Of a DNA stretch of 64,000 nucleotides, positions 6,087-40,114 are shown in pieces. A program made the position numbers and the translations under genes. How positions within the stretch are numbered: the stretch's first letter is position 1; every line of letters begins with the position of its first letter. Source of the stretch: Mixophyes australis (lineage: Eukaryota > Chordata > Amphibia > Anura > Limnodynastidae); assembly GCA_036250195.1 (NCBI GenBank), contig JAVHZZ010000002.1, positions 274,044,960-274,108,959 of the forward strand, read 5' to 3'. The notes under the pieces were generated by a model. It saw only the letters and a program-made list of their open reading frames with translations. It was not told the origin of the DNA and searched no databases.

Positions 6087-7019
6087 ATGACAGACCCAGG
6101 AGCGGAACCTACAGCTAAAGAGATGCTGCAGTATCTGGTTACCCGTATTGAACAACAGGAAGCTCGCCAACAACAATTGCTGCAATGTTGCCAGGCGTTA
6201 GCCTCCCAAAGAACGTCTGCGCAAAATATCACAGCTACTGTTGAAGCTCCTGTGCCTTCCTCTGTTTCCCCAGTGCCATCCCAGGTGTCTACTGCTTCCA
6301 CGCTACACCTGCCTACTCCTTCAAAATATGATGGAGACCCCAAAACATGCAGGGGTTTTCTAAATCAATGCTCAGTTCATTTTGAGCTTCAACCTCACAA
6401 TTTCTCTACTCATCGTTCCAGAGTGGCCTATCTCATTTCCTTGTTTTCCGGACAAGCTCTCGCATGGGCTTCCCCTCTGTGGGAAAGAAATGATCCATTA
6501 TTACAAGATAGTGCCAAATTTATTTCCATGTTTCGAAGTGTATTTGATGAACCTGGTTGTGTTATTTCCGCTGCATCCAGCATCCTCCGTCTACGTCAGG
6601 GTTCTCGTACTGTAGCCCAGTACGTCATTCAATTTCGGATATTAGCCTCTGAACTTCAGTGGAACAATGAAGCTTTAATTGCTGCCTTCTGGCAGGGGCT
6701 TTCTGATAAAATTAAAGATGCACTGACTACTCAAGAATTACCTACTTCTCTAGAAGATTTGATTTCTCTTTGCCATCGTGTAGACATGAGATTTCGTGAA
6801 AGAGAGTCTGAAAAAACAACTTCATATAAAGCACCTCTTCGCTTAAGTCCTCAAGTTCGCCAAGTTTCATCTCCGGTAGTACCTATGGAGATAGGTTGCT
6901 CCAAATTAACTTCAGAGGAGAAGGACCGAAGAGTAAAAAATAGACTTTGTATCTATTGTGCTGATTCTACTCATATGCTCAATTCATGCCCTAAAAAATC
7001 GGGAAATGCCAGGCCCTAA
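6087..7019 (+). CDS. Gypsy Gag polyprotein
   Basis: This 310-residue frame is intact. Residues about 15-30 are Gln-rich (helical, EQQEARQQQLLQ), followed by a Pro/Ser/Thr linker. The central part (about 75-235) has the layout of a Ty3-type capsid. A single zinc knuckle of the form C-x2-C-x4-H-x4-C (CIYCADSTHMLNSC) lies near residue 290. Gag would form the virus-like particle and bind the RNA. The TAA stop is at 7017-7019. The downstream pol frame is -1 relative to gag, and an A6 run at about 6992-6997 is a possible slip site, though it is not a canonical heptamer. This is the only undamaged frame of the element. Confidence 0.9.
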   Translation: MTDPGAEPTAKEMLQYLVTRIEQQEARQQQLLQCCQALASQRTSAQNITATVEAPVPSSVSPVPSQVSTASTLHLPTPSKYDGDPKTCRGFLNQCSVHFELQPHNFSTHRSRVAYLISLFSGQALAWASPLWERNDPLLQDSAKFISMFRSVFDEPGCVISAASSILRLRQGSRTVAQYVIQFRILASELQWNNEALIAAFWQGLSDKIKDALTTQELPTSLEDLISLCHRVDMRFRERESEKTTSYKAPLRLSPQVRQVSSPVVPMEIGCSKLTSEEKDRRVKNRLCIYCADSTHMLNSCPKKSGNARP

Positions 7020-10000
7020 CCAGTTCTGGAGAGGTGAAGTTAGGGTCCCTGGAGTCCTCTCCATGTTCTACGAAATTAAAAGTTTGTGCTTTTGATGTTA
7101 CGGTTTCCTTTGCTACCAAGTCTTTCATGTCCCAAGCACTTATTGACTCTGGAGCTGCAGGAAACTTTATTTCTAAATCCCTCGTGAATTAATGGTCCCT
7201 ACCAGTGATTACTTTGAAAATACCTATTACTGTGACTGCTATCGATGGAGCACGCATTATTAATGGTCTCATCACCCAGAGTACGTCTCCAGTAACACTT
7301 CAAATTGGTGTATTACACCAGGAAGAAATTTCATTTTTAATTCTTCCTGTTACTACCAGTCCGATTGTATTAGGCCTTCCATGGCTTCAACGTCATTCTC
7401 CCCAGATTGACTGGCACACACCTCAAGTTACGTCTTGGGGGTCTGAGTGTCATCATCGTTGCCTCTCTCAAGTCCTTCCTCTCAAGATACAGCAATCCTC
7501 CATTTCACCTTGTTCACCGGGACTTCCTCCTCAGTATGCTTCTTTTGCCGATGTATTTGATAAAACTCAGTCTGAACGTCTTCCTCCTCATCGTTCGTGG
7601 GACTGTCCGATTGATCTTCAACCTGGCAAGACTCCTCCCAGGGGTCATGTGTATCCACTTTTGTTACCTGAAACTCAAGCTACATCTGAGTACATCAAAG
7701 AGAATCTCCAGCGAGGATTTATTCGACCTTCTACCTCTCCCGCTGGAGCAGGGTTTTTCTTCGTAAAAATGAAGGATGGGTCATAACGTCCTTGCATAGA
7801 TTTCCGTGGACTTAACGACATAACTATCAAAAATCGGTATCCCATTCCATTAATTACTGAGTTATTTGATCGTATCAAGGGAGCTCGGATCTTTACCAAG
7901 TTGGATCTTCGTGGTGCCTATAATTTAATTCGAATCAGGTCCGGTGACGAATGGAAGACAGCTTTCAACACCAGAGACGGGCATTATGAATATTTAGTAA
8001 TGCCCTTCGGGTTATGTAACGCCCCCGCTGTTTTCCAGGGTTTCGTTAATGAGATCTTCCGGGACTTGTTATATGTTTGTGTCGTCGTCTATCTGGACGG
8101 CATATTAATCTTTTCTCAGGACCTGCCTTCTCATCATCAACATGTGGCAGAGGTCCTTTCCAGACTCCGGAAAAATTCATTATTCTGCAAGTTAGAAAAA
8201 TGTTCATTCGAGTTGCCCCAGATTCCATTTCTGGGATATATTGTTTCCGGAGTTGGTCTTCAGATGGATCCAGAAAAGGTGAATGCTGTATTACATTGGC
8301 CTCAGCCAACTACTGTTCGTGCAATTCAGCGTTTTTTAGGTTTTGCCAATTACTATAGACGCTTTATTCAAGATTTTTCCTCGATTGCATCTCCTATTGT
8401 GGCCCTAACTCGTAAAGGGGCCAATACTAAACAATGGTCCTCTGAGGCCCTTCAAGCCTTCCAGTTTCTCAGAGTCCTTCTCCTCCGCTCCTGTTCTTCG
8501 ACAGCGCTTCCCTTCTTCCTAGAGGTAGATGCCTCTAATGTTGGTTTAGGAGCCATTCTCTCCCAAAGATCGGAGCAACAAAAATTCCATCCTTGTGCCT
8601 TTTACTGTCGGGGTCTTCTGCCTGCGGAGAAGAATTATATCATTGGTGACAAGGAGTTGCTGGCTATAAAAGTAGCATTAGAGGAATGGAGATATTTGTT
8701 GGAAGGAGCTCGTCATCCTGTGACAATTTTTACTGATCATAAAAATTTGTCATATTTACAGTCTGCTCAATGTTTGAAACCTCGTCAAGCAAGATGGTCT
8801 CTTTTCTTTTCTCGTTTTGAACTAATCATAACCTTCAAACCAGTTGTGAAAAATAAAAAAGCAGACGCCCTATCTCGAGCCTTTGTGACGTCCTCAGACG
8901 TTGAAGATGGTCCTAACCACTCTATATTAGACCCCAAATGTGTTTCTCTGGCTGCTTCTTCCACTAAGGTGCTACCATTTGGGAGAACCCTCGTGCCTTC
9001 TGCTCTTAGGAAGAAAATCCTTTTGTGGTTTCACTCTTCTCGTTTTTCTGGACATTCTGGTGAACGCAAGACTTTTGAAATTCTTTCTCGAAGTTACTGG
9101 TGGCCTTCTATGAGGAGAGATGTCAAAGATTTTGTGGCTGCTTGTGAATTGTGTTCCCAGTTCAAGACTCCCCGCAGAACTCCAGCGGGTTTGCTTCAAC
9201 CACTACCCATTCCTTCCAAGCCGTGGACCCATATTAATATGGACTTTGTTACTGATCTTCCTCCTAGTAAAAACTGCAATACTATTTGGGTAGTGGTGGA
9301 TAGATTTTCGAAGATGGCACATTTCGTTCCTTTGACCGGTTTACCTTCTTCATCTACTCTGGCTGATTATTTCATCAAAGAAATCTTCCGTATTCATGGA
9401 TGTCCTTCCGAGATTGTTTCAGATAGAGGAGTGCAATTCGTTTCCAGATTCTGGCGGGCCCTCTGTAAGACCTTGGGTATCCGATTATCACTCTCATCCT
9501 CCTACCATCCTCAATCAAACGGACAAACCGAAAGGGTCAATCAAGATCTTGAGACTTTTATAAGGATGTTCTCTTCAGCCAACCAAGACAACTGGGTAGA
9601 TTTGCTTCCATGGGCTGAATTCGCTCATAACAACATGTATCATGAATCATCTTCTAAAACTCCATTCTTTGTGGTTTACGGTCACCATCCGTCTTTTCCG
9701 GAATTTCCTGCCCTCCCTCCCACCCAAGTTCCTGCTGTAGAGACTGTTTGTCAGACCTTCAAAAATATTTGGTCTCAGGTCAAAACCTGTTTAAAGAAGA
9801 CATCTGCCAGATATATTGGATGCAAAAAATTTTTGCGAGTAGTGCTTTGTTTCCTCGTTCATTGGAAGGGCTTTGGTCCTGAAGAGCGTTCATGGATTAA
9901 AGCAGAAGATCTCAGCGCTCCAGCTCTTCTTAAGAAGTTTTATTCCAAGTTTCCGGACAAACCCGGTTCCAGGTGTTCTGTGACCACCTTTAAAAGGGGG

Positions 10001-10072
10001 GGTACTGTCACTCACCGGACTGTGAGTGCCATTTCTCCTGTGTTCAGGAACCGTGGCCGTCCGCCATCCTGA
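7020..10072 (+). pseudogene. Gypsy Pol: protease, RT, RNase H, integrase, chromodomain
   Basis: One frame carries protease LIDSGAAGNF (about 7140), RT (from about 7530, with FRGLN, DLRGAYNLIRI and MPFGLCNAPAVFQ), RNase H (FFLEVDASNVGLG), the integrase H-C zinc region (GHSGERKT, CELC), catalytic segments MDFVTDLP, IVSDRGVQF and HPQSNGQTERVN, and a C-terminal chromodomain (FLVHWKGFGPEERSW). Lesions: TAA at about 7189-7191 and at 7784-7786, both single-base changes in an otherwise continuous frame. The RT box reads YLDG instead of YLDD at about 8091-8102. Only about 40-60 residues separate the end of the integrase core from the chromodomain, so the GPY/F-like module appears deleted. The element is non-functional but recent. 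Confidence 0.9.
9990..10003 (+). promoter_or_regulatory. Gypsy polypurine tract
   Basis: The purine run aaaaggggggg lies 2-3 bp before the 3' LTR. It is the expected primer for plus-strand DNA synthesis. Confidence 0.8.
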
Positions 10073-13004: not shown

Positions 13005-13420
13005 ACCAATATAGCCAAGTATAGTCTCCAATTGCTTTGCCAGTTGCCATTGAGTATATGTGTCAATTGTTGATACATTTTATACATTTCAAAGTTTTGT
13101 TTTTATTTTCAATAAAAAGTTTTATTGTTCACATGCCCGTTTGATTAATTTACAATTTTTAGACTCAGTATTCCTATTTTTATCTTTTGTTTGTATCTGG
13201 TGGTACTCTATGTCCTGGTTGCTCTTTTTGTCTGTATTGATTGTTGTGGGTGCACCATTGCCTATTTCCAGCTGCAGTTTCCCCTAGCTTCATTCATTTT
13301 TGCAAATATTTAGTGCCTGATATATATATTTTTCTTGCTTTTCCTAATTAATTGGGAACTTAAATTTGGTGCCTTTCTGAAAATAAGTTGCGATTTATAT
13401 AGTAAAAAGGATTAAGGATC
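13005..13420. other. Unassigned AT-rich flank
   Basis: No gene or transposon terminus was recognised between the ERV LTR and the Penelope relic. Confidence 0.4.
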
Positions 13421-16400
13421 TTCATCCTTTTCTTATACGTGCCAATGTTTCTTTAGAATCCTTTGAAGTTGTTTGGCAGAATCTGAGTATTGGGTGATAA
13501 ACTTGACATTTTTCTTGTGCTTAGGCATCCCTTTTTCCTTATAATAATCTCTATTTATGTTCTTGGCTCTCTGAAATGCTTTATCAACTATCTCCGGATC
13601 ATAAAATTTGTCCAAAAATTGTTGTTCAGTGCATTTTCTTGTTCTACACAGTGATTTAATTCCGCACAGTTACTGAGTATTCTAGTGAACTGACCTATGG
13701 GTATGCGCCAGTTTGGGTGGTGGTGACTAGTGAATAAAATATAGTTGTTAACAACCACCGTGTCACTCACCGGACTGTGAGTGCTATTTCTCGTGTGTTT
13801 AGGAACCGTGGCCGTCCGCCATCCTGAGGGTCTGCGCATGTGCAGCCCTTTCAAGCCTTCAGTACCTGTTCCTTTTCATTAATTGGCTGCTCAGGCAACA
13901 CTCCCTATTTAAAGCACCTGAGGTCAATACCTCGTTGCCTGATCTTGAAGTCTCATTCCCATGAGCCTCTGAAAGTGTTCCTGTGTTTCCTCGTGTATTC
14001 AGCTCCTGCTGATTCCTGTTATTCGTTTGTGGTTTCCAGACCACTTCAACTCTCCTGTGTTCATCGTGTCTGCAGCAGCTGATTCCTATCCGCTGCCTCC
14101 GTTGTGTCTACAGAGTTTCCAGACTCACTTCAACTCTCCTGTGTTCATCGTGTCTGCAGCAGCTGATTCCTATCCGCTGCCTCCGTTGTGTCTACAGAGT
14201 TTCCAGACTCACTTCAACTCTCCTGTGTTCATCGTGTCTACAGCAGCTGATCCCTATCCGCTGCCTCTGTTGTCTCTACAGAGTTTCCAGACTCACTTCA
14301 ACTCTCCTGTGTTCATCGTGTCTGCACCAGCTGATTCCTATCCGCTGCCTCCGTTCTTTCTACAGAGTTCCTGCTCACCTCAACTCCCCGGTGTTCATCG
14401 TGTCTGCAGCCAGCTGATTCCTATCCGCTGCCTCCATTGCTTCTACAGAGTTCCAGCTCATCTCAACTCTCCTGTGTTCATCGGGTCAGCGCTCCGCTGC
14501 TACCATCTCTGCTACTGGAGTTCAGACCGCTTCAACTCTCCCGTGTTCTTCATGTTCCAGTTCCTTTTACTACTGCTTCCAGAGTATTGCCTCATTCATG
14601 CTGGTTTACTTGCCGTGCGCTGCACCAACTTGATTACCGCTCCCACCTTCCAGTGGTCTCTCCTCCTGCCGGCCTACAGCCGTTCAGGTATCCCTGCACA
14701 TCTCTCTGACAGCCTGCTCTCCTGACCCGCGGAATGCATACTTCTCATTGACTTTGCTTGTGATTGCATATCTAGCTGGACTGAGTTGTGTTCTCCTCCG
14801 GAGTCCTTTATCCACTGAGACTATCGCTACCATTGACTTTGTTTCCTATTTGCCTGGATTGTTATTGTGACTTTGTATACTTTAGCAGTGCTGCTCTGTT
14901 ATCATTTGTATTGTGATATCATCGTGGGATCAAGTCCTGTGTGCCCGTGTATACTCTGCATAGCATTCATCTCCTCGTGCTCTCCTCACATATATATTTC
15001 AGTGGTACAACTTGCTATCCGCAGACCACTGACTTCCCTGTTATCTAACTCCACCTGGATTCCATTCCTTCACCTAGACAGCGGTACAACTTGCTATACG
15101 CAGACCGCTGACTCTCACTGCCTCCTCGTTACCTCTGGACATTCCTCCTCACTATAGCAGTGGTACAACTTGCTATACGCAGACCACTGACTATCCTCAC
15201 GTTACCTTGTCCATTTGGTTCCTCGTGTACAGTTATATACTCATTACCAGTGCTGCTAGTCATAGACTTTTCCTGAGCATTCTCTCACCATCTGCTGTTC
15301 CTCCTGTTCCGTTGTCACCCTGCTACCAGAGTACCTATTACCACCTATATTACTCTGGTAAGCCACCATCTGGTGATTTCCTGGGTAAAGACTCCTAGTG
15401 CCCGTGACACACCGGTTTTGAGAAGGTCTTTGTCTAAATTTGACGGTTCTCTATGAAGATATCCAAATCTAAAAATTCTATCCTCTGTTGACTATACTTG
15501 GTGGTGAATGTTAAATTGTAGCTATTGGTATTCAACAAGGCTAGAAATTCTACAACTCAATTTGCATCCCCCTTCCAGACCATCATATGTTATCTTTATA
15601 ATGTTTGTAGAGAACCAGGCTTATCCCAAGAACACCAGCCCCCTCAACTGCCTCTACTTCCCACAAACTCATGAAGAGGTTGGCGTAACTTGGGGCGAAC
15701 CTGGTGCCCATAGCTTCACACTAACCAAAAGTTATCTTCCCATATGATTCTCTGTAGTTCCTTAAGGGTATGTGCTGTATCTCTCAAGTATGAGGACTGC
15801 TGTTTAACCTAAGGCTGCAAAAAGTTGTCCACATATCTAGAGAGATTCAATGTTACTGAGCTAATCCCCGATATGATGAAACGACCTGGAGGTTTAGTTT
15901 GATTTTTGTGCACTTTTGGCAGGAAATAGAACACAGGAATAATAGGATGTTTTATATTCAAAAATGTATATTCCTCATGGTTCAGTGTACCTTTTTCTAT
16001 ACCTATGATCAAATGGTTCATCAATAGTTGTCTGAATGCATTAGTAGGATCTTTCTTAAGTGATTGGTACGTGGACTGATCTCCTAAGATACACTTAGCT
16101 TCATTTTAATAATCCTTTATATTCATGACCACTAACACTCCTCTTTTGTTGGCTGGTTTAAATATTATTTCTGTTTTGTTTTGTAGTTGTGCCAATGTTT
16201 CTTGCTCTGAACACGTAAGTTTGTATTTGATATATTTGGACTGAGTGTTTATTTGTTTAATCTCATCTGTGACTAATCTATTGAATGTAATAATGAAGTT
16301 TCCCTTCAAATGTCCAGGGTAAAATTTCAATGTTGGTTTTAATGTTGTATGACGATATTCATTCTGTGTACATATGGTAGTTAATTCTGTTGTTGGAGCT

Positions 16401-16620
16401 TTGTTAAAAAAGTATTGCTTGAGAGATAATTTTCTAATAAAGCTCTGTAGGTCTAAATAAGTTTCAAATTTATTTACCTTATTGTTTGGGGCAAATTTAA
16501 TCCCTTTATTAAGTAATGATGTTTGTGCCTCTGTCAGGACATGGTCACTAAGGTTAAATATACCAATTGGTTGTATATCATTTGAAGTCTCTAAACCCAA
16601 CCCAAAGGGTAGGACTTTAT
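13421..16620 (-). pseudogene. Penelope-like element relic (RT and linker)
   Basis: Minus-strand fragments match the intact copy at 26672-33615 in the same order. RT N-terminus is at 16600-16106 (GIFNLSDHVL, GIKFAPNN, IIFKPANKRGVLVV). The RT core is at 16024-15809 (VFYFLPKVHKN, PPGRFIISGISS, NLSRYVDNFLQP). Further fragments of the region between RT and endonuclease lie at 15750-15415 and 13740-13433 (HHHPNWRIPIGQFTRI). The conserved Gly of PGRPI is present but Pro is replaced (GRFII). There are many stops and frameshifts. The GIY-YIG endonuclease and the terminal repeats are missing. A solo gypsy LTR is inserted at 13761-15409. Confidence 0.8.
13761..15409 (+). repeat. Solo LTR of the same gypsy family
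   Basis: It has the same TGTCACTCACCGG start and CCGTGACA end as the full element, with 5-bp TSD CACCG at 13756-13760 and 15410-15414. No internal region remains, so LTR-LTR recombination is the likely origin. It is more diverged than the two LTRs of the complete copy and carries three hairpin modules at 15000-15031, 15079-15110 and 15158-15189. It lies inside the Penelope relic. Confidence 0.95.
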
Positions 16621-26279: not shown

Positions 26280-26662
26280 GGTAAAGACCCTCCTCGTGGA
26301 ATTTGTAGTTCATTTTGATGAAAATCATCTTTTTCCACATTTTTAGGAAGTAGCTTCCTACGACGATCACTGAAAAGGTTCACGGCTGAGCTGAAAACTC
26401 TTTGCAAGTACATGCTAGAGGGTGGTCATCTTAGGTATTGCAAAGCGAGTTTATAAATGGGTCTCCAAATTGCCTTTTTTTTCTCCCTGTATGTAAAGGG
26501 ACTGTCTGATGTGTCTATTTGTATGCTGTCATTAAAATAACCCAAGATGTAGTGATCCGATTTCAAGATCTTGATAACTCTTGAATATTGATGAAGTGAA
26601 TAAAGCACTTGATCTATAAGTCCAACATACTTAGTGTAATTGCTTTGTTTTATCTCCTCTTT
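26280..26662 (-). pseudogene. hAT transposase C-terminal part (copy 2)
   Basis: The minus strand reads SPFTYREKKKAIWRPIYKL and LALQYLR, matching copy 1 (YWEETQAIWKPMYKLALQYL). After that comes the RRRKLLPKN-like segment and KMIFIKMN. An internal deletion at about 26530-26545 joins the dimerisation region directly to an upstream region corresponding to 17790 in copy 1. The Penelope element cuts it at 26671/33616. Confidence 0.75.
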
Positions 26663-27347
26663 CAGTTTCTCATTAATACAGTAATATTCTGCGCTAAACC
26701 TAGATAATGGAATAATATTGATCAGCCTAATGTGGTAAAAATGCCTTTATCAACTGGTATTACAGGTCATGAGAACCATATACAGGGGTGTAAATGAACA
26801 TCAAATATACATCATAGGTACATCATACATAAATTGAACATAGTCATATGATAAATAGGGTGCAATGCTCCACTGATGCTAAAAGGTAGTGGAACAGACG
26901 GTGAAACAATATTGAACAGAATAAAATCCTGCGGATGTAAGGTGTCCAGAAATGTAAAAAGATCCAAATAGGAGGGGGGGGGGGGGAGGAGAAAAAACAA
27001 CGACAGTTGCATATGAAAAACAGTCTCAAGTAGTCCAGCAAAATAAAATAAAATAAAATGTCCAGCGGAGGGGATAGAAAGAGGAAAGGGGTGATATTAC
27101 TTGCGCTTGAACCAATCCAGGATGTAGCGATGATCCTCAGGATATCTGGTATAATCCGTGTGGGGTCCAAACTTAAGATGGGTGATCCTCGCGAGGATTA
27201 TTCAGTGCATGATCCGGAGATCGGGAGAATGGAGAGCTTGGAGAGCAGAGTAGCGAGCGGGATGTCGGCGTGCGTGCCAACTGTGGAACGCACGCTTCCT
27301 GACTGTCACGACTGGATGTGCACAAACCGGAAGTGATGGGTGATAGT

Positions 27348-27383
27348 CCGACGCGTTTCGTTACCTAGGTGACTTTTTCAAGG
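27348..27383 (-). ncRNA. Degenerate hammerhead ribozyme motif in pLTR
   Basis: On the minus strand: GCC, then UUGAAAAA in place of CUGANGA(A), then a stem GUCACC-UA-GGUAAC, then GAAAC-GC-GUC, then GGA. GAAAC-GC-GUC is the hammerhead GAAA plus a two-base-pair stem III and the NUH cleavage site, the format known from Penelope-associated hammerheads. The first core strand has C3 to U and G8 to A; G8 is catalytic in known hammerheads, so activity is unlikely. Confidence 0.55.
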
Positions 27384-28179
27384 CAGTGATGTATGTGTAG
27401 GGGAGGGCGGGTCTTATATACGCTGTGCTGGAGTGTTCAGATCTTCTGAGTCACATGTTTTATGTGATTAGCGTTTCAACATAGTCTGTCCTTTGGCGTT
27501 GATAGGTGTAGATTGATCAAAAACGGAAATAAAACATTTCAAATGTACATATATCCAGAGGACTTGATTGTATGCAATACTTATATAAGCCAGAGTGCAG
27601 GACTAACCTATATATATAGCACACTTGAGTAAACTAACATTGTAGTAAAGCTATGGATTTATAAATGCGGGATACCGCATAATATATATACGGAGGAAGG
27701 GGGGGAAGGGGAGGGGGAAGCTGACTAGTCTTAATGTTTAGGGTGCAGTTTGGGTCATGTGTCTCACATATCCCCAAATGTGGACTTGTGTGTATATGTA
27801 CAGAGATATATCCATAATGATTGTGCATACGTATATGGATACATATATATATATATATATATAGATAAAGCAAAAATAGACATCTATGTCCATATATAGA
27901 TGGATGGCATACGAATGGTACATATGTCTGCGATTTGGAAAGTGAACAATGACTGCAATTAGAGAGATACAGTGTGAAAGAAGTGGTATACTTCTGCGTT
28001 AATCTAATGTATCGTTATTAGAACAGATGGGACCAAATATATATAGATGGTTGACAATAAATGGCTGGTATATTCACTATGATGATAGTGCATTACTAGC
28101 AATCATACGGGGGTGTTAGTTCCGTTATAAGTTAGCGTCTGTTCTCTGTCACTGGGTAGGGAGATCAACTCTACAGATT

Positions 28180-28305
28180 GCGCACCGTGCTGAACCTGAT
28201 ATTCTCCACCGTTCGCACAATGGGTACTTGTCAGGCCCACACAGTATCGCCTCCGAGTTCGGATGGGATCGGGCATGGACTGTGTGGTATGTCAGCACGG
28301 TGCGC
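28180..28305 (-). ncRNA. 5S-rRNA-like segment in pLTR (downstream copy)
   Basis: The minus-strand transcript of 126 nt can form all five 5S helices. Helix I: a 14-bp perfect arm pair GCGCACCGTGCTGA/TCAGCACGGTGCGC. Helix II: CCACACAGT/ACTGTGTGG, 9 bp. Helix III: CCGA/TCGG around a 12-nt loop. Helix IV: CCATTGT/ACGGTGG closed by GCGA. Helix V: CCTGA/TCAGG. Primary sequence also matches: GCCCGATC, CTCGGAGGC, GGGCCTG, AGTAC, GAATATCAGG correspond to eukaryotic 5S positions in order. The internal promoter boxes A and C are not conserved and no oligo-T terminator follows, so an independent Pol III gene is unlikely. Confidence 0.75.
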
Positions 28306-28392
28306 ATCTGACCTTGCCGTACGTGATGAGTTTCACAGACAGCTACAGATATCAAACTCAATATTAAGTCCTTTGGGAGTCTGGGTATCTAA

Positions 28393-30630
28393 TTAAAAAA
28401 TCCATCTATGTTCTTCTTTGTTGATATTTTTGGTGAGATTTCCACCTCGCCAATTCTTCTTGATTCTTGAAATTGCCATAAAGGTAAGCGAGGATGGATC
28501 ACTATTGTGTTTTAAATGAAAATGATGTGAAACGCTGTGAGTGTGTAGGCTCCGTTTGATGTTCCGTATGTGTTCCGCTAACCTTACTTTTAGCGGTCGG
28601 ATTGTTCGCCCTACATATTGTAGTTTACATGGACACTGGAGGAGGTATACTACCTCTTTGGTTTCACAAGTTATGAAGTCTTTAATCTTGTATGCTCGGT
28701 CAGTCGTAGTTGATTGGAAGGTGTGGATGGGTTTAGTGCTTCTCACACCGCATGTTCTGCATGCTATGCATTTTCCGCAACTGTAGAAGCCTAACTGTTG
28801 TTGTTGTGGGATCAGGGTGGTTTGTATGGGTAGTTTTGGGGGAAAGTGATTTTGTACTAACTTTTTCTTCAAATCAGGGGCTTTGCGGAAAATAATGCTT
28901 GGTTTCTGTGGGAGAATTGGACGCAATTCAGGATCTTGTTTGAGTATGTTCCAGTGTGAATTTATAATTCTCTGGATTTTAAAAGCTTGATTATTGTAGT
29001 GCATGATAAAAAGTATTTTTTCTTGTTGTGTGGATTTAGTTGGGGAATGTCTTGGATGGAGTAAGGATTCTCTTTCTCTGACTTCAGCTTGCTTGTATGC
29101 TGATTCAATGGTATCTATAGGGTAATTTTTCTCAAGAAATTGTTGTTTGAGCTGATGCCCTTGTTCTGCAAAATGATGTGGTTGTGAACAGTTCCTCTTA
29201 ATTCTCGTAAATTGACCATATGGGATATTGTTAAGCCATTGTGGGTGATGGTTGCTGGTGGCGAGAATATAGCTGTTGACGTCAACGGGTTTTTGAAATG
29301 TTTTGGTTTCTATGTGGTTATTCTGGATGAAGATCAGTAAATCTAGAAACTCTATTTCGTGGCGACTATACTTGGTGGAGAATTTGAGATTAAAAGGGTT
29401 GGTGTTCAGATCCTGCATGAAGGAGGTGAGTGATGTTTAATCACCTCTCCATATGGCAATTATGTCATCTATGTGCCTGTGCCAGAGGACCAGGTTTGCC
29501 CCATGTTGGTGGTTGGACCAAATGTGTTGTTCCTCCCACCTGCTCATGAACAGATTAGCGTAACTCGGGGCAAACCTGGTCCCCATGGCAGTGCCCCTAG
29601 TCTGCAGATAAAAGGTGTTTTGAAACCAAAAGTAGTTGTGGGTGAGTATGAACTGAATACTATCTAGGATGAATTGAACTTGAAGTGGTTGCATGGTAGG
29701 GTCGTTGGAGAGAAAATGCTCAATGCTTTGTATTCCCTGGTGGTGAGCAATGACAGTGTAGATGGAAGTGACGTCGCTGGTAATGAGCCAGAGATCATCA
29801 CCCCACTCCACTTTGGACAAGATGTTTATGATATGTGTCGTGTCTTTGATGTATGATTGTTGAACTTTAACATAGGGTTGTAAGAAATGATCAATGTATT
29901 GGGATAGGTTGGAGGTGATGGAATTGATACCGGAAATGATAGGTCTACCCGGTGGTTGTGTGACACTTTTATGTATTTTTGGCAAGTAATAAAATACTGG
30001 GATGGTTGGGTGTGTGATGGAGATGAAGTCGTGTTCTTTCTTTGTTAGAATTCCTGATTCTAAGCCTACATTGAGCAATTTTGCCAATGATTGTTGGAAT
30101 GAAGTAGTTGGATCTGTCCTTAGTTTGGTATATGTGATGGAATCATCTAATATGTCGTTCGCTACTTTGATGTAATCTTGCTTATTAAGCAGCACTATCC
30201 CGCCGCCTTTGTCAGCGGGCTTGATAACTATGTCGGTATTTTGTTGCAGTTCTTTTAGAGCATTTGTTTCAGGTATAGTGAGGTTTATGCGGTTGGATGC
30301 GGTGTTTGTATTCATTTTTTGAATATCATCCATGACCATATGTTCAAATGTTTGTATGAGAGGACCTTTAAGAAAAGTGGGGTTAAAATGTGATGATGGT
30401 TTTAGTGCGCTGTGTTTGTATGTTGATATAGTTGTCGCGTTCTTAGTCTGTAGTGGATGTCTGAGGAAGTATTTCTTGAGAGTAAGTTTACGAGTGAATT
30501 TATGTAAGTTGAGGTACATTTCGAATTTGTCTGGTTTATTGGCGGGGGCGAATTTCAGTCCCTTGTGTAAAAGAGATGCGTGTGGCGTTTTTAATTGAAA
30601 GTTGCTAAGATTAAAGATACCTTGAAGCAA
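28393..30630 (-). CDS. Penelope RT with GIY-YIG endonuclease (one stop)
   Basis: One continuous minus-strand frame is interrupted only by a TAA at 29437-29439. The 397-residue RT part contains IKPADKGGGIVLL, VFYYLPKIHKS, PPGRPIISGINS, the first catalytic box SDVTSIYT, GTAMGTRFAPSYANLFM, and HIDDIIAIW as the second catalytic box (usually YIDD or YVDD). After the stop, 341 residues hold the linker with a Cys cluster (SCGKCIACRTC) and the endonuclease: VVYLLQCPCKLQYVGRT, RPLKVRLAEHI and a C-terminal Asn/Glu region. In known Penelope elements RT copies the RNA at chromosome ends or nicks made by GIY-YIG. The reading frame begins further upstream, after a frameshift near 30650. Confidence 0.9.
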
Positions 30631-30650
30631 CTCCTCTTTAGAGGGTTTGA

Positions 30651-31578
30651 TTAGATTATTTTTACTTTTTTTGCCGCCTCTTCGGCCTCTATATCGTTTT
30701 GGTGGAGTTTCCTTTTTATCTGTGGAGTTAGTGTAGTCTGTTGGTATGTTGAGGTTAGTGGTGGATCTGGTGTTGGATTTTTTAGGCTGATGTCTAAAAA
30801 AGGTACCAGGGTTGGATTAGTATTGGTCGAATCTAAAAGGTCAGGTCCTTGGATTGAGAATAGGGGCTTCACTTTGTATGATGTCAGTCAGATTAAGGTC
30901 GAGCCAACCTTGTCCGAATGACTCTCTCGCTAGATTATCATAGTGGGGGTCATGATCGATTTCATAAATTGAAAATGATGTTGATGATTCATCTTCTGAT
31001 GAGGATGAGGATGTATTTACTGTAGGTTTAGTTTGTTTGTGTCTCTGGGGGATGTGTTTGGAATGTAGCTTGGTCATATATTGTTGGTAAGTTAGATTTA
31101 GCCGTTTGTATGTAGGAATACTTTTATGTGTTTTTAGGCTGTTGCGGCTATATACTTCCTTATGTACCTGATGCGCGTGACTGGGGGATTTTTTGGTACT
31201 TTTATCTCGTGACCTCGTTGTGATCTGCTGTGGACATTGTTTGGATTTTCTATGTGCAGGACCTTTGATTCCAAATTTGTCTCGTAGGAGTTTCCTCTTC
31301 TTAATTTGTATAAGTGTGTTTTCTTTGTTATTAAGCCTGGTTTTTATTAAGCCTTCTAGAGTGGCATATTCTTGTTGGGTTTTAAATGGGTGGAGTACAG
31401 TCTCTAGGTCAGTGATATCTGACTCTAGTTTAATGAGTTCGCTGTTCCTAACTTCTACAATTAATTCGATCAGGCTCCTAGAACATGTGTCTAGGATGTC
31501 TTGCCATTTTGCCAGAAATGATAGATCTTGTAGATGGTGAGTGGGGCTCTTTTTGATGTGTAGGCCTTTAGGGATCAA
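30651..31578 (-). pseudogene. Penelope N-terminal region, frameshifted
   Basis: 31578-30841 encodes 245 residues: a helical, coiled-coil-like stretch (about residues 30-95, IKLESDITDLETVLHPFK), then a Lys/Arg/His-rich part and an acidic Ser-rich part (SSSSEDESS). The frame ends at 30841 but continues in another frame at 30872-30651 (KPLFSIQGPDLLDS...), before RT resumes in the first frame at 30630. Two compensating frameshifts or one small indel pair would explain this. A nucleic-acid-binding role is inference from its basic composition. Confidence 0.65.
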
Positions 31579-31918
31579 TTTTTCCTGTTGGTACCACAGA
31601 AGTGTTTGTTTATCCCACCATATTTAATTTTCCTTTTCTAATAATTTTTCAAGTTGTAGAAAGTGCTGGCAGAATGTACCTCCATTATCGCCAAGATCTA
31701 TGGTATTATGTATATTAAAAAAGGATTCTGCGGCCCCAGCTGGTCTAGTGTTTCTGAATTCAGCAATACCCATGAGTGGTGTCATATATGTTTGAATCCG
31801 TGTGCAGCTAACCTAGGACTAATTAGTAACAGGTAATAGGCAGAACAGGGGGAAGTGCACTACGGATATGTATAGGTAGAAGCAGCAGAATATCAGGTTA
31901 GTCCAACCTGAGATAGAG
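31579..31918 (-). other. Penelope 5' untranslated stretch
   Basis: It lies between the upstream pLTR and the first long frame. Short frame continuations are possible (the region reads further similarity-like text up to about 31620) but no motif was identified. Confidence 0.4.
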
Positions 31919-32611
31919 CATTAATACAGTAATATTCTGCGCTAAACCTAGATAATGGAATAATATTGATCAGCCTAATGTGGTAAAAATGCCTTTATCA
32001 ACTGGTATTAATTATTCATTCAGTGGATTACAGGTCATGAGAACCATATACAGGGGTGTAAATGAACATCAAATATACATCATAGGTACATCATACATAA
32101 ATTGAACTTAGTCATATGATAAATAGGGTGCAATGCTCCACTGATGCTAAAAGGTAGTGGAACAGACGGTGAAACAATATTGAACAGAATAAAATCCTGC
32201 GGATGTAAGGTGTCCAGAAATGTAAAAAGATCCAAATAGGAGGGGGGGGGGGAGGAGAAAAAACAACGACAGTTGCATATGAAAAACAGTCTCAAGTAGT
32301 CCAGCAAAATAAAATAAAATAAAATGTCCAGCGGAGGGGATAGAAAGAGGAAAGGGGTGATTACTTGCGCTTGAACCAATCCAGGATGTAGCGATGATCC
32401 TCAGGATATCTGGTATAATCCGTGTGGGGTCCAAATTTAAGATGGGTGATCCTCGCGAGGATTATTCAGTGCATGATCCGGAGATTGGGAGAATGGAGAG
32501 CTTGGAGAGCAGAGTAGCGAGCGGGATGTCGGCGTGCGTGCCAACTGTGGAACGCACGCTTCCTGACTGTCACGACCGGATGTGCACAAACCGGAAGTGA
32601 TGGGTGATAGG

Positions 32612-32647
32612 CCGACGCGTTTCGTCACCTAGGTGACTTTTTCAAGG
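32612..32647 (-). ncRNA. Degenerate hammerhead ribozyme motif in pLTR (upstream copy)
   Basis: Same motif as 27348-27383, but stem II is a perfect palindrome GTCACCTAGGTGAC and the short stem I reads GCC/GGC. The core again reads UUGAAAAA, with G8 replaced by A. GAAACGCGUC is intact. The ACGCGT palindrome could pair between two molecules, as proposed for small Penelope hammerheads acting as dimers. Confidence 0.55.
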
Positions 32648-33437
32648 CAGTGATGTATGTGTAGGGGAGGGCGGGTCTTATATACGCTGTGCTGGAGTGT
32701 TCAGATCTTCTGAGTCACATGTTTTATGTGATTAGCGTTTCAACATAGTCTGTCCTTTGGCGTTGATAGGTGTAGATTGATCAAAAACGGAAATTAAACA
32801 TTTCAAATGTACATATATCCAGAGGACTTGATTGTATGCAATACTTATATAAGCCAGAGTGCAGGACTAACCTATATATATAGCACACTTGAGTAAACTA
32901 ACATTGTAGTAAAGCTATGGATTTATAAATGCGGGATACCGCATAATATATATACGGAGGAAGGGGGGGAAGGGGAGGGGGAAGCTGACTAGTCTTAATG
33001 TTTAGGGTGCAGTTTGGGTCATGTGTCTCACATATCCCCAAATGTGGACTTGTGTGTATATGTACAGAGATATATCCATAATGATTGTGCATACGTATAT
33101 GGATACATATATATATATATAGATAAAGCAAAAATAGACATCTATGTCCATATATAGATGGATGGCATACGAATGGTACATATGTCTGCGATTTGGAAAG
33201 TGAACAATGACTGCAATTAGAGAGATACAGTGTGAAAAAAGTGGTATACTTCTGCACTAATCTAATGTATCATTATTAGAACAGATGGGACCAAATATAT
33301 ATAGATGGTTGACAATAAATGGCTGGTATTTTCACTATGATGATAGTGCATTACTAGCAATCATACAGGGATGTTAGTTCCGTTATAAGTTAGCGTCTGT
33401 TCTCTGTCACTGGGTAGGGAGATCAACTCTACAGATT

Positions 33438-33563
33438 GCGCACCGTGCTGAACCTGATATTCTCCACCGTTCGCACAATGGGTACTTGTCAGGCCCACAC
33501 AGTATCGCCTCCGAGTTCGGATGGGATCGGGCATGGACTGTGTGGTATGTCAGCACGGTGCGC
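33438..33563 (-). ncRNA. 5S-rRNA-like segment in pLTR (upstream copy)
   Basis: The 126 nt are identical to 28180-28305, with the same five-helix potential and the conserved loop E bases (AGTA opposite GAA). Both pLTRs derive from one template at insertion, so the second copy is not independent evidence of selection. Confidence 0.75.
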
Positions 33564-33615
33564 ATCTGACCTTGCCGTACGTGATGAGTTTCACAGACAG
33601 CTACAGATACAGATA

Positions 33616-35344
33616 CAGTTTCTCAAGCTGCTTTACCAAAAGTCTAATTAAGAGAATCACTTGGTTCAAGCTAGCATTGTCTGAACTAACTTCACAGGTG
33701 ACTACTGCAAAAGGTTTCAGCACCTTGCACAACATGGAAAGTATTCTCCCCTGCACTGGACTAAAATACATTCCATCTCCTTTCCCAATGAATTGGCTTA
33801 AATGTGGAGTAAGCTGTTTCGCTGTTCCTCCATCCTCAGAAGCAAATAAAGTGTGGAATTCCATCTTGCAGTCATATAATCTTTAGTTTGCCAAGTTCCA
33901 CTTGTCCATATAACTGTGGTTAAGAGTACAGTGGGTAGAATGGCATTTTGTAGCCCAATAATTACATTTTCACGAACCTTCTGGTAGAGGTGAAGAATAG
34001 CTTTTCTAGTAATATGATGTTGTGAATTTGGTAACGGGGACATAAGACCTCACTTAACTGTCTAAAACCAGCTGCATTAATAGTGGATATTTTAGGCCGC
34101 AGATCTAATACTAGCATAGTCACAATGGTGTCTGTGATCCGCTTAGTGACTGGGTGACAGCTTTCATACTTGCTTCCTCTTGCATAGAATTGTTTTACAG
34201 TCAATTGTTGTAAACTACAAGTCGTCTTCTTCTTGGTCTGCTTCTGGGATCAAGATCCACCCACTGCAGCCGCAGCAGCAGCATGGGGACTAATCCTAAA
34301 GAATTCTTCTGAGGAATCCTGGAAAGTGGAGGAGTTATCTAGCCTTAGCAAATTGCATGCAGGACTGACTTCGAGCGCTAGAGAGGATATTGATGAGAAC
34401 TGTGTTGTGGGTGTAGATTGCATGTGCCTGGATCTAGGTGAGAGAAGGGAGCTAGCTGATGCTGGACTGCTTGTTGTTATTTTTTTAGCATTAGTTTCTG
34501 ATTTTTCCAAATGCTTCCCATGAGCTCTCTTCAAATTTCATAACATGGATGAGGATTCCAGATGATTAAGGTCCCTACCTCTACTGACTGTGGCTTTACA
34601 AATGCTACAAATGGGTAGACAACTGTTGTCAGGATGGGTAAAAATAATTCCACACATAAGAGGTGGATATTTTGGTTTTATGCCCAGGCATGACAATGGT
34701 CTTCTTATCATGTGTAAGAACTGCTTCCACTGGTGCAGGACTGACACAAACAACATCATTGTCATCAACATCCTCATTAGCGCAGTTGTCAGCTACACAA
34801 ATATCCCCCTCATCCTATTGCAATTCCAAAGTGGCATCATCAATTTTTGTATCGCTGGCTACACTTGGGCTGCTCATCCGCACATCTGCCGAAATGCTGA
34901 AAGGAGGCTTCTTTATGAGTTCAGTATCAGAAATGTCAGGCTTACAAATAGCACTCATGCTTAGACTCTCCTCAGGGATTTGTGTCATTTCTGAATCGGA
35001 TCATACAGTTTCTTCTGCCTTACTGTTTTTTTTTCAGCTCGGATTTTACACTTAAACGTCTTTGGGCAACACTTTTTGAGTCTGAATGACAAGGTCTTGC
35101 ATCGTCATGACTGACCTTACAAGAAGATGCCTCACTGACAGTTGCAGAACTAGCACTCATACAGAAAGGCGTAGTTCTGATTCTTTCCTTGCCACTGAAT
35201 GTGTAGAATGGCATGTTGGCAATTTTATGTTTTTCTGCTGTAAACTTTGCCTTGATTACATGTGTTTTTTTATTGACCAAGGTAAAAGATTTTTATTTAC
35301 ATTTTTGTTTCATTGACTTTAAAAACACTATGCACTTTAACATA
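33616..35344 (-). pseudogene. hAT transposase N-terminal and central parts (copy 2)
   Basis: In minus-strand order: N-terminus with KIANMPFYTFSGKERIR (35280-35020); an acidic linker; a BED finger CGIIFTHPD with CSICKATVSRGRDLNHL (34680-34560); a Ser-rich segment (34534-34250); MTVKQFYARGSKYESCHPVT and RITDTIVTMLVLDLRP (34204-34060); and the start of the catalytic region (34043-33800, TTVIWTSGTWQTKDYMT). Frameshifts are frequent, and copy 1 supplies the pieces missing here. The frame is cut by the Penelope insertion at 33615. Confidence 0.8.
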
Positions 35345-39475: not shown

Positions 39476-40114
39476 CAATATATATATATATATATACTCC
39501 TCCTGACGAAGTCTATACGACGAAACGCGTTGAGGCTGTTCTACATACATTATTCCTGGTACACATAAGGCTGTACTGTCTACCTGATCCCTGAAAAGTT
39601 ACCCCATTGAGAACTTCTGTGCGGAGCCCATTGGTGTTTACTTCTTATACATCCCAGTGATCTACATCGTGTAGCAGTATCCTATGTCCACAGGATTAAC
39701 AGACCGTATGAGTGGAGTTTGTGAGCAGTGACTGTGCTGTGGCTGATGATCCAGTTACCATATACCTACATAGATATCTACACGTCTGTTCCTGACCTCT
39801 TGAAGCTGACTGGAGCTAATTTCCAAGAACCTCTGATACAGATAAGCTGTTTATTTATATCTTTTTGGTACGTTGCCACCTATCACTTGCTACTGATTGT
39901 CACGGATACATCTGAAACGTTGTTTTCTGCTTTCTTCTGTCTGTGTTTCGGCATATGATCAGGAATTATGAACATTGGTTTATACTGTTTATACCAGTCT
40001 GACATGATGAACACTTTGTATTTATATTTCTGTATACAGTAATACTGACTGTCTGGACGATCTGTACCAGTTAGCACTACTAGATTTGGCGCCATCATCC
40101 CTCTTTCTATATTT

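Follow-up and report, generated by a model that had tools for sequence, protein, structure and literature searches.

The 64,000 nucleotides of Mixophyes australis DNA analysed here (the whole stretch, hereafter the window) contain a Penelope-like element on the minus strand, enclosed by a target site duplication. Its single reading frame is surrounded by direct pLTR repeats, as in Penelope-like elements, and the following features delimit it:

33616 to 33625, no strand: target site duplication CAGTTTCTCA, high end (10 bp)
31919 to 33609, minus strand: upstream pLTR, pairing with 26671-28351
32612 to 32647, minus strand: second hammerhead-like relic, in the upstream pLTR copy
28393 to 31785, minus strand: single reading frame with an N-terminal part, a reverse transcriptase (RT) and a putative GIY-YIG-like C-terminus, judged from homologues
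26671 to 28351, minus strand: downstream pLTR, 97.4% identical to 31919-33609 over 1701 columns
27348 to 27383, minus strand: hammerhead-ribozyme-like relic with GAAACGCGTC kept and the CUGANGA core absent (pattern scan)
26663 to 26672, no strand: target site duplication CAGTTTCTCA, low end (10 bp), overlapping the element boundary by two bases

The two pLTRs differ by 14 mismatches among 1671 aligned bases, with 30 gap columns. The end of the downstream pLTR at 26671 corresponds to position 31919, and cDNA synthesis therefore presumably began there. The RT is of the Penelope type, with 2263 homologues at E ≤ 0.001; among the 120 listed, the best nine are proteins of Leptobrachium leishanense and Xenopus tropicalis (44-51% identity), and fish, newt and many unnamed proteins also occur there. 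Copies of this family from the host itself are probably absent from that protein set. Pfam RVT_1 reaches 23.1 bits on the element protein, below its cut-off of 29.6 bits. The C-terminal part displays 35% identity over 348 columns to a protein (P0042) carrying a precomputed PF01541 assignment, and no Pfam match to the GIY-YIG domain was obtained in the protein of this copy. The reading frame opens with an ATG (31785), closes with a stop (28393) and is interrupted by four in-frame stops before the final one; as it stands, this copy cannot yield the full protein. Hammerhead ribozymes have been reported for several Penelope-like elements and are not known to be universal among them. The relics noted in the two pLTRs were called with what we take to be the hammerhead motif (CUGANGA core, GAAACGCGTC), and no Rfam hammerhead match was found in 26400-34400, even at E ≤ 10.

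Other parts of the window also contain traces of mobile elements. A second Penelope-like relic was located by tblastn with the RT homologues at 13301-13785 and 15359-16618 (minus strand), without a gathering-level Rfam match to 5S, and long open frames at 6087-10072 (plus strand) resemble the gag and pol of a retrotransposon, presumably an LTR retrotransposon of the Gypsy type. A pattern scan also revealed a hammerhead-like core at 39502-39535 (plus strand), with CUGACGA, a short stem II and GAAACGCGTT, for which there is no gathering-level Rfam match.

Each pLTR of the element carries, 46 nt from its start, a domain resembling 5S rRNA, the downstream copy being located about 87 nt past the RT reading frame. 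Its copies and main parts are:

28180 to 28305, minus strand: 5S rRNA-like domain, downstream pLTR copy (RF00001, 71.2 bits; fold z -6.7)
33438 to 33563, minus strand: 5S rRNA-like domain, upstream pLTR copy, identical to the former (RF00001; pLTR alignment)
28174 to 28310, minus strand: whole stem-bounded 5S-like domain, with helix I of 14 bp and 5 bp past a bulged A
28253 to 28273, minus strand: CCCGATCCCATCCGAACTCGG, the stretch of helix III and loop C, with 17 of 20 letters shared with Xenopus 5S (Rfam alignment)
28225 to 28228, minus strand: 5' side of loop E, AGTA (sequence; Rfam alignment)
28202 to 28204, minus strand: 3' side of loop E, GAA (sequence; Rfam alignment)

A search of the 64 kb window with Rfam release 15 gave RF00001 matches at 28184-28300 and 33442-33558, both on the minus strand, each with 71.2 bits, an E-value of 5e-13 and coverage of the full model (1-120). 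These two sites, 5.3 kb apart, are the only gathering-level Rfam matches in the window. Scores of this size are far from anything expected by chance, and the match has the sense orientation of the element, in agreement with an earlier note on this DNA, which had placed a 5S-like RNA domain in both pLTRs in this orientation. The same note had named the lack of an RF00001 match above threshold as an outcome that would speak against it; this outcome did not occur, the gathering score of the family being 38 bits.

The 126-nt sense strand of the domain has a predicted folding energy of -65.3 kcal/mol (z -6.7), which none of 200 dinucleotide shuffles equalled; its predicted fold includes 52 pairs, 5 of them G-U. 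When folded with its flanks, helix I gains five extra pairs (CAGAT/ATCTG) beyond one bulged A, bringing the domain including this outer stem to 137 nt. Among 39 sliding windows folded along the upstream pLTR, none fell below z -4, the lowest (-3.1, at 33403-33528) overlapping the domain; these scores say little because no window framed the domain exactly. The helix I of 14 bp, the helix II of 9 bp, the AGTA opposite GAA and the GCGA loop that had been pointed out from the letters are all seen in the sequence. The accompanying claim of all five helices holds only for a possible fold and is weakened at helix III, whose mean pair probability in the free domain RNA is only 0.03; forcing the Rfam-aligned pairs on the domain costs about 4.5 kcal/mol. 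The pair probability of this helix is similarly 0.01 in the Rfam consensus, versus at least 0.93 in provisional 5S sequences of Xenopus, human and Arabidopsis. The Rfam consensus has the same universal loop C letters as the domain and likewise does not form helix III in silico, so that the low value for the domain does not decide the matter.

Seven 5S sequences, whose letters are provisional, served as comparison and as putative ancestors. The domain shares 63-64% identity with those of Xenopus, human and fish and 47-52% with those of fly, worm, plant and yeast, and a vertebrate-type 5S is therefore the simplest source, a non-vertebrate origin being less likely on the same values. Together with the full-length RF00001 match, these identities to vertebrate 5S bear out the proposed 5S origin of the segment. 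Considering the pairs aligned by Rfam, 32 of 34 are standard and 11 are changed on both sides relative to the Rfam consensus, while neutral decay from this consensus, simulated with the same number of changes placed at random, left a mean of 17.9 standard pairs and never reached 32 in 20000 runs. The Rfam consensus is no ancestor, and the pairing test was therefore repeated from these seven 5S. With the Xenopus 5S as reference, standard pairing holds at 31 of 33 pairs, and six pairs are changed on both sides; neutral decay from it left a mean of 18.9 pairs, none of 5000 runs reaching 31 and two of 5000 reaching six two-sided changes. From each of the seven starts, the observed pairing was reached in 0 of 5000 runs. 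Transitions spare G-U pairs: with 67% of them in the neutral model, the observed pairing was reached once in 10000 runs from Xenopus and once in 10000 from the consensus, and with transitions only in 6 of 10000 and 65 of 10000, respectively, the observed share in the domain being 6/20 (versus Xenopus) and 8/26 (versus the consensus).

By these alignments, the pairing is preserved while over a third of the letters (about 37%) diverged from vertebrate 5S. The previously suggested retention of the fold is thus sustained above neutral expectation, and the compensatory change claimed for helix V, from CCTGG/CCAGG to CCTGA/TCAGG, holds against the Xenopus 5S used here. The two-sided changes may have arisen inside the Penelope element and been selected there; the counts come from a single insertion. 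The identity of the two pLTR copies of the domain was rejected as evidence of constraint because about one mismatch per 126 nt is expected from the 14 mismatches in 1671 bases. In loop C, the domain has shifted away from the vertebrate letters and closer to those of the universal consensus.

Conservation is unevenly distributed along the domain. Against the Xenopus 5S, 17 of 20 positions are kept in helix III-loop C, 5/6 on each side of loop E and 3/4 in loop A. With promoter box limits taken from PMC3342222, the corresponding values are 7/14 for box A, 4/6 for the intermediate element and 8/17 for box C. Loops A, C with helix III, and E together keep 30 of 36 positions versus 42 of 79 elsewhere (Fisher p 0.0019, the regions having been chosen after alignment), whereas boxes A and C keep 15/31 versus 57/84 in the rest (p 0.08), so that calling these boxes lost rests on modest numbers. 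The earlier statement of their loss is hence to be softened: both are poorly kept, and the intermediate element largely is kept. It was right that no oligo-T follows the domain, the next TTTT on the sense strand lying 429 nt after the domain start, and the domain does not present the Pol III promoter and T-run terminator of a functional 5S rRNA gene. Preserved pairing and recognition loops, combined with weak boxes A and C, point to selection that would have acted on the RNA rather than on a Pol III promoter.

The domain and eukaryotic 5S patterns, exact and degenerate, were searched in viral contigs and gave no copy of the domain; an RT homology search of the same contigs gave no second copy of the element. 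The start of an IMG/VR contig (L004, 1-80) resembles a cut-off eukaryotic-type 5S rRNA. In genome contigs, the RT search retrieved three distant loci (L001-L003) with 24-29% identity, where no 5S match was found at E ≤ 0.1. Two of them, L001 (61-1188, 29%) and L002 (1639-2907, 26%), are Penelope-like RTs on MAG contigs labelled bacterial and are probably eukaryotic contamination; L002 also shows a sub-threshold match to the hammerhead family HH9 (27.1 bits versus a gathering score of 52). Two reading frames across the domain gave no match as protein queries, which is a weak test. The earlier note knew of no 5S domain described in Penelope elements, and none was found in the titles and abstract openings of the matching papers listed, which come mainly from open-access full text. 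Penelope and 5S terms occur together in PMC8869645, PMC12031113 and PMC10085705, on other matters in the passages concerned.

Several known systems share part of this arrangement. Cassandra and Ajax TRIM elements and SINE3 are likewise retroelements with 5S-derived sequence in a terminal repeat or at the head (PMC10886601). A 5S-like structure has been ascribed to Cassandra transcripts (PMC10853983), while the account of Ajax in PMC10886601 reports no 5S-like fold in the parts concerned. These three are non-autonomous and their Pol III motifs are described as kept (PMC10886601); unlike them, the present element has an RT and a putative GIY-YIG-like domain, and its boxes A and C are poor while the pairing is kept. 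Cassandra and Ajax (TRIMp3) are short LTR elements lacking coding capacity, unlike the present element with its RT frame between the repeats, though this frame is broken by stops in this copy, and the promoter boxes (box A 7/14, box C 8/17) do not identify it as Cassandra/Ajax or SINE3 either. Elements of the Poseidon type from Anolis and others share the pLTR-ORF-pLTR arrangement, an RT with GIY-YIG, which is putative here, and a structured RNA close to where pLTR and ORF meet (PMC11167929), but they bear a hammerhead, whereas here the structured RNA is the 5S-like fold and the hammerhead is a relic. In frog genomes, PcP190 is likewise a repeat derived from 5S (PMC11675491); it is, however, a tandem satellite of about 190 bp whose two primer sites are absent from the domain. 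An origin from this satellite is set aside on primer mismatch alone (6/19 and 8/21), and only two 5S-like sites, 5.3 kb apart, are found in the 64 kb instead of a tandem array.

Two further systems present a likeness at the RNA level. In plants, L5 binds a 5S mimic within the TFIIIA pre-mRNA (PMC5972288); as here, a 5S-shaped domain lies in a longer transcript (PMC5972288, PMC6164485). The plant mimic is a host splicing switch, whereas the present one lies in the repeat of an animal retroelement and its L5 binding is putative. Potato spindle tuber viroid is a parasitic RNA that engages RPL5 (PMC6164485), as the present element putatively does, but it has a loop E motif and not the whole 5S fold, and is not a retroelement. 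RPL5 is described in the viroid case as a negative factor that acts through splicing (PMC6164485), and the viroid is consequently a precedent for binding only.

Our preferred reading, to which we give a probability of roughly 0.4, is that a captured vertebrate 5S, kept by selection on its fold, would bind host 5S proteins, most likely RPL5 (uL18). A vertebrate 5S sequence would have been captured long ago by a Penelope-like element, its fold being maintained since then by selection while promoter boxes A and C decayed; since the fold has outlasted the promoter, a role at the level of the RNA is favoured. Helix III-loop C is the major L5 recognition site in Xenopus according to the title of a work that PMC6164485 cites, and the text of this review places L5 recognition on helix II and loop C. 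As helix III-loop C is among the best-kept parts of the domain and is named as an L5 site, RPL5 is the likeliest partner and would bind the domain in the element transcript through this region; TFIIIA could perhaps bind through loop E and helix V. The roles put forward in the earlier note (L5 or TFIIIA binding, trafficking, ribosome recruitment) are likewise putative. Oocytes store TFIIIA-5S particles (PMC12953832), and a title cited in the same paper relates TFIIIA versus L5 in Xenopus oocytes to storage versus mobilisation. The element RNA might thus be held in storage particles of the oocyte 5S type and then be brought back for reverse transcription in the nucleus or nucleolus. Oocytes have large stocks of 5S RNA, and an element of the germline would benefit there. 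Counting against a 5S mimic are the helix III probability of 0.03, the four in-frame stops in this copy, and the shift of loop C to the universal form, which is unexpected from a simple capture of frog 5S.

Selection on the fold may also be dispensed with altogether, if a diverged frog 5S or 5S-derived repeat was captured and its stems were kept or perfected by template switching across the palindrome, reverse transcription copying one arm onto the other. This would fit a mismatch-free helix I of 14 bp, prolonged by 5, and a perfect helix II of 9 bp, more regular than in ordinary 5S, as well as the G-U count (5/52) of the predicted fold, and frog genomes do contain several 5S types and the 5S-derived satellite PcP190 (PMC11675491). 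Arm copying would however not preserve loops, and loops A, C and E are kept better than the rest; moreover, the known candidates for a diverged source are closer to 5S than the 63-64% of the domain, the two 5S types of Rhinella marina being 88.74% alike (PMC11675491) and PcP190 sharing 70% with 5S (PMC4201667), and the PcP190 primers match the domain with 6/19 and 8/21 mismatches at best. We regard such an origin as unlikely. Slightly less credit is given to the domain as the remnant of a 5S gene or 5S-derived SINE that was captured, once provided a Pol III promoter, in the manner of Cassandra, Ajax and SINE3, and is now decaying. LTRs with 5S-derived sequence are known (PMC10886601), the intermediate element is kept at 4/6, and an 8-nt direct repeat, ATCTGTAG, at 28343-28350 and 28171-28178, flanks the pLTR head and the domain and is possibly an old insertion scar, or chance. 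Nevertheless, the known 5S-carrying elements are described as keeping their promoter motifs, while here boxes A and C are poor and it is the pairing that is kept, and no near terminator follows the domain.

The recognising partner could alternatively belong to the element itself, its own RT/endonuclease rather than a host 5S protein recognising the domain together with a hairpin at the presumed start of reverse transcription and so linking the pLTR ends. For Anolis Penelope, reverse transcription begins internally, close to where the pLTR joins the ORF, and a protein-binding motif near this internal start has been hypothesised (PMC11167929). The leader of the present element contains two features relevant to this possibility:

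31893 to 31911, minus strand: leader hairpin preceding the ORF, 7 nt beyond the end of the pLTR (fold prediction)
31887 to 31899, minus strand: 13 nt exactly complementary to positions 28193-28205 of the domain, in helix V/loop E (complementarity search)

The 96-nt fold holding the hairpin has a z of -2.0, with 8 of 200 shuffles as good. None of 2000 Markov-sampled domains reached a 13-nt complement in the 71-nt leader stretch, and 18 of 2000 had a 13-nt match anywhere in the 5090 nt of element searched, the second pLTR being left out; the duplex CCTGA/TCAGG is in addition common to helix V and the leader hairpin. This complementarity was nonetheless noticed after the fact, in the predicted fold some of the 13 nt are instead engaged in local pairs with the end of the pLTR, and a stable domain-leader pairing is not supported, cofolding giving no gain over separate folds (-75.7 both ways). 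Recognition by the element's own machinery would furthermore leave the 5S letters of loops A and C unexplained, and we hold it to be about as improbable as template switching.

When a retroelement has captured a small-RNA gene, the usual interpretation is that of a promoter. In the present case most of the promoter letters have disappeared and the pairing persists, which separates promoter use from RNA use. More doubtful than the mimicry itself, and rather unlikely in our view, is the full proposal that this would be the first retrotransposon to imitate 5S rRNA as RNA, with a handle bound by RPL5/TFIIIA that provides a route of oocyte storage and nuclear return, the 5S promoter and the hammerhead having been given up. 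If proteins of the 5S pathway do bind the domain, there would be an animal parallel to the 5S mimic of plants and to the binding of viroid RNA to RPL5. If true, this would bear on how Penelope element RNAs are chosen and brought back into the nucleus.
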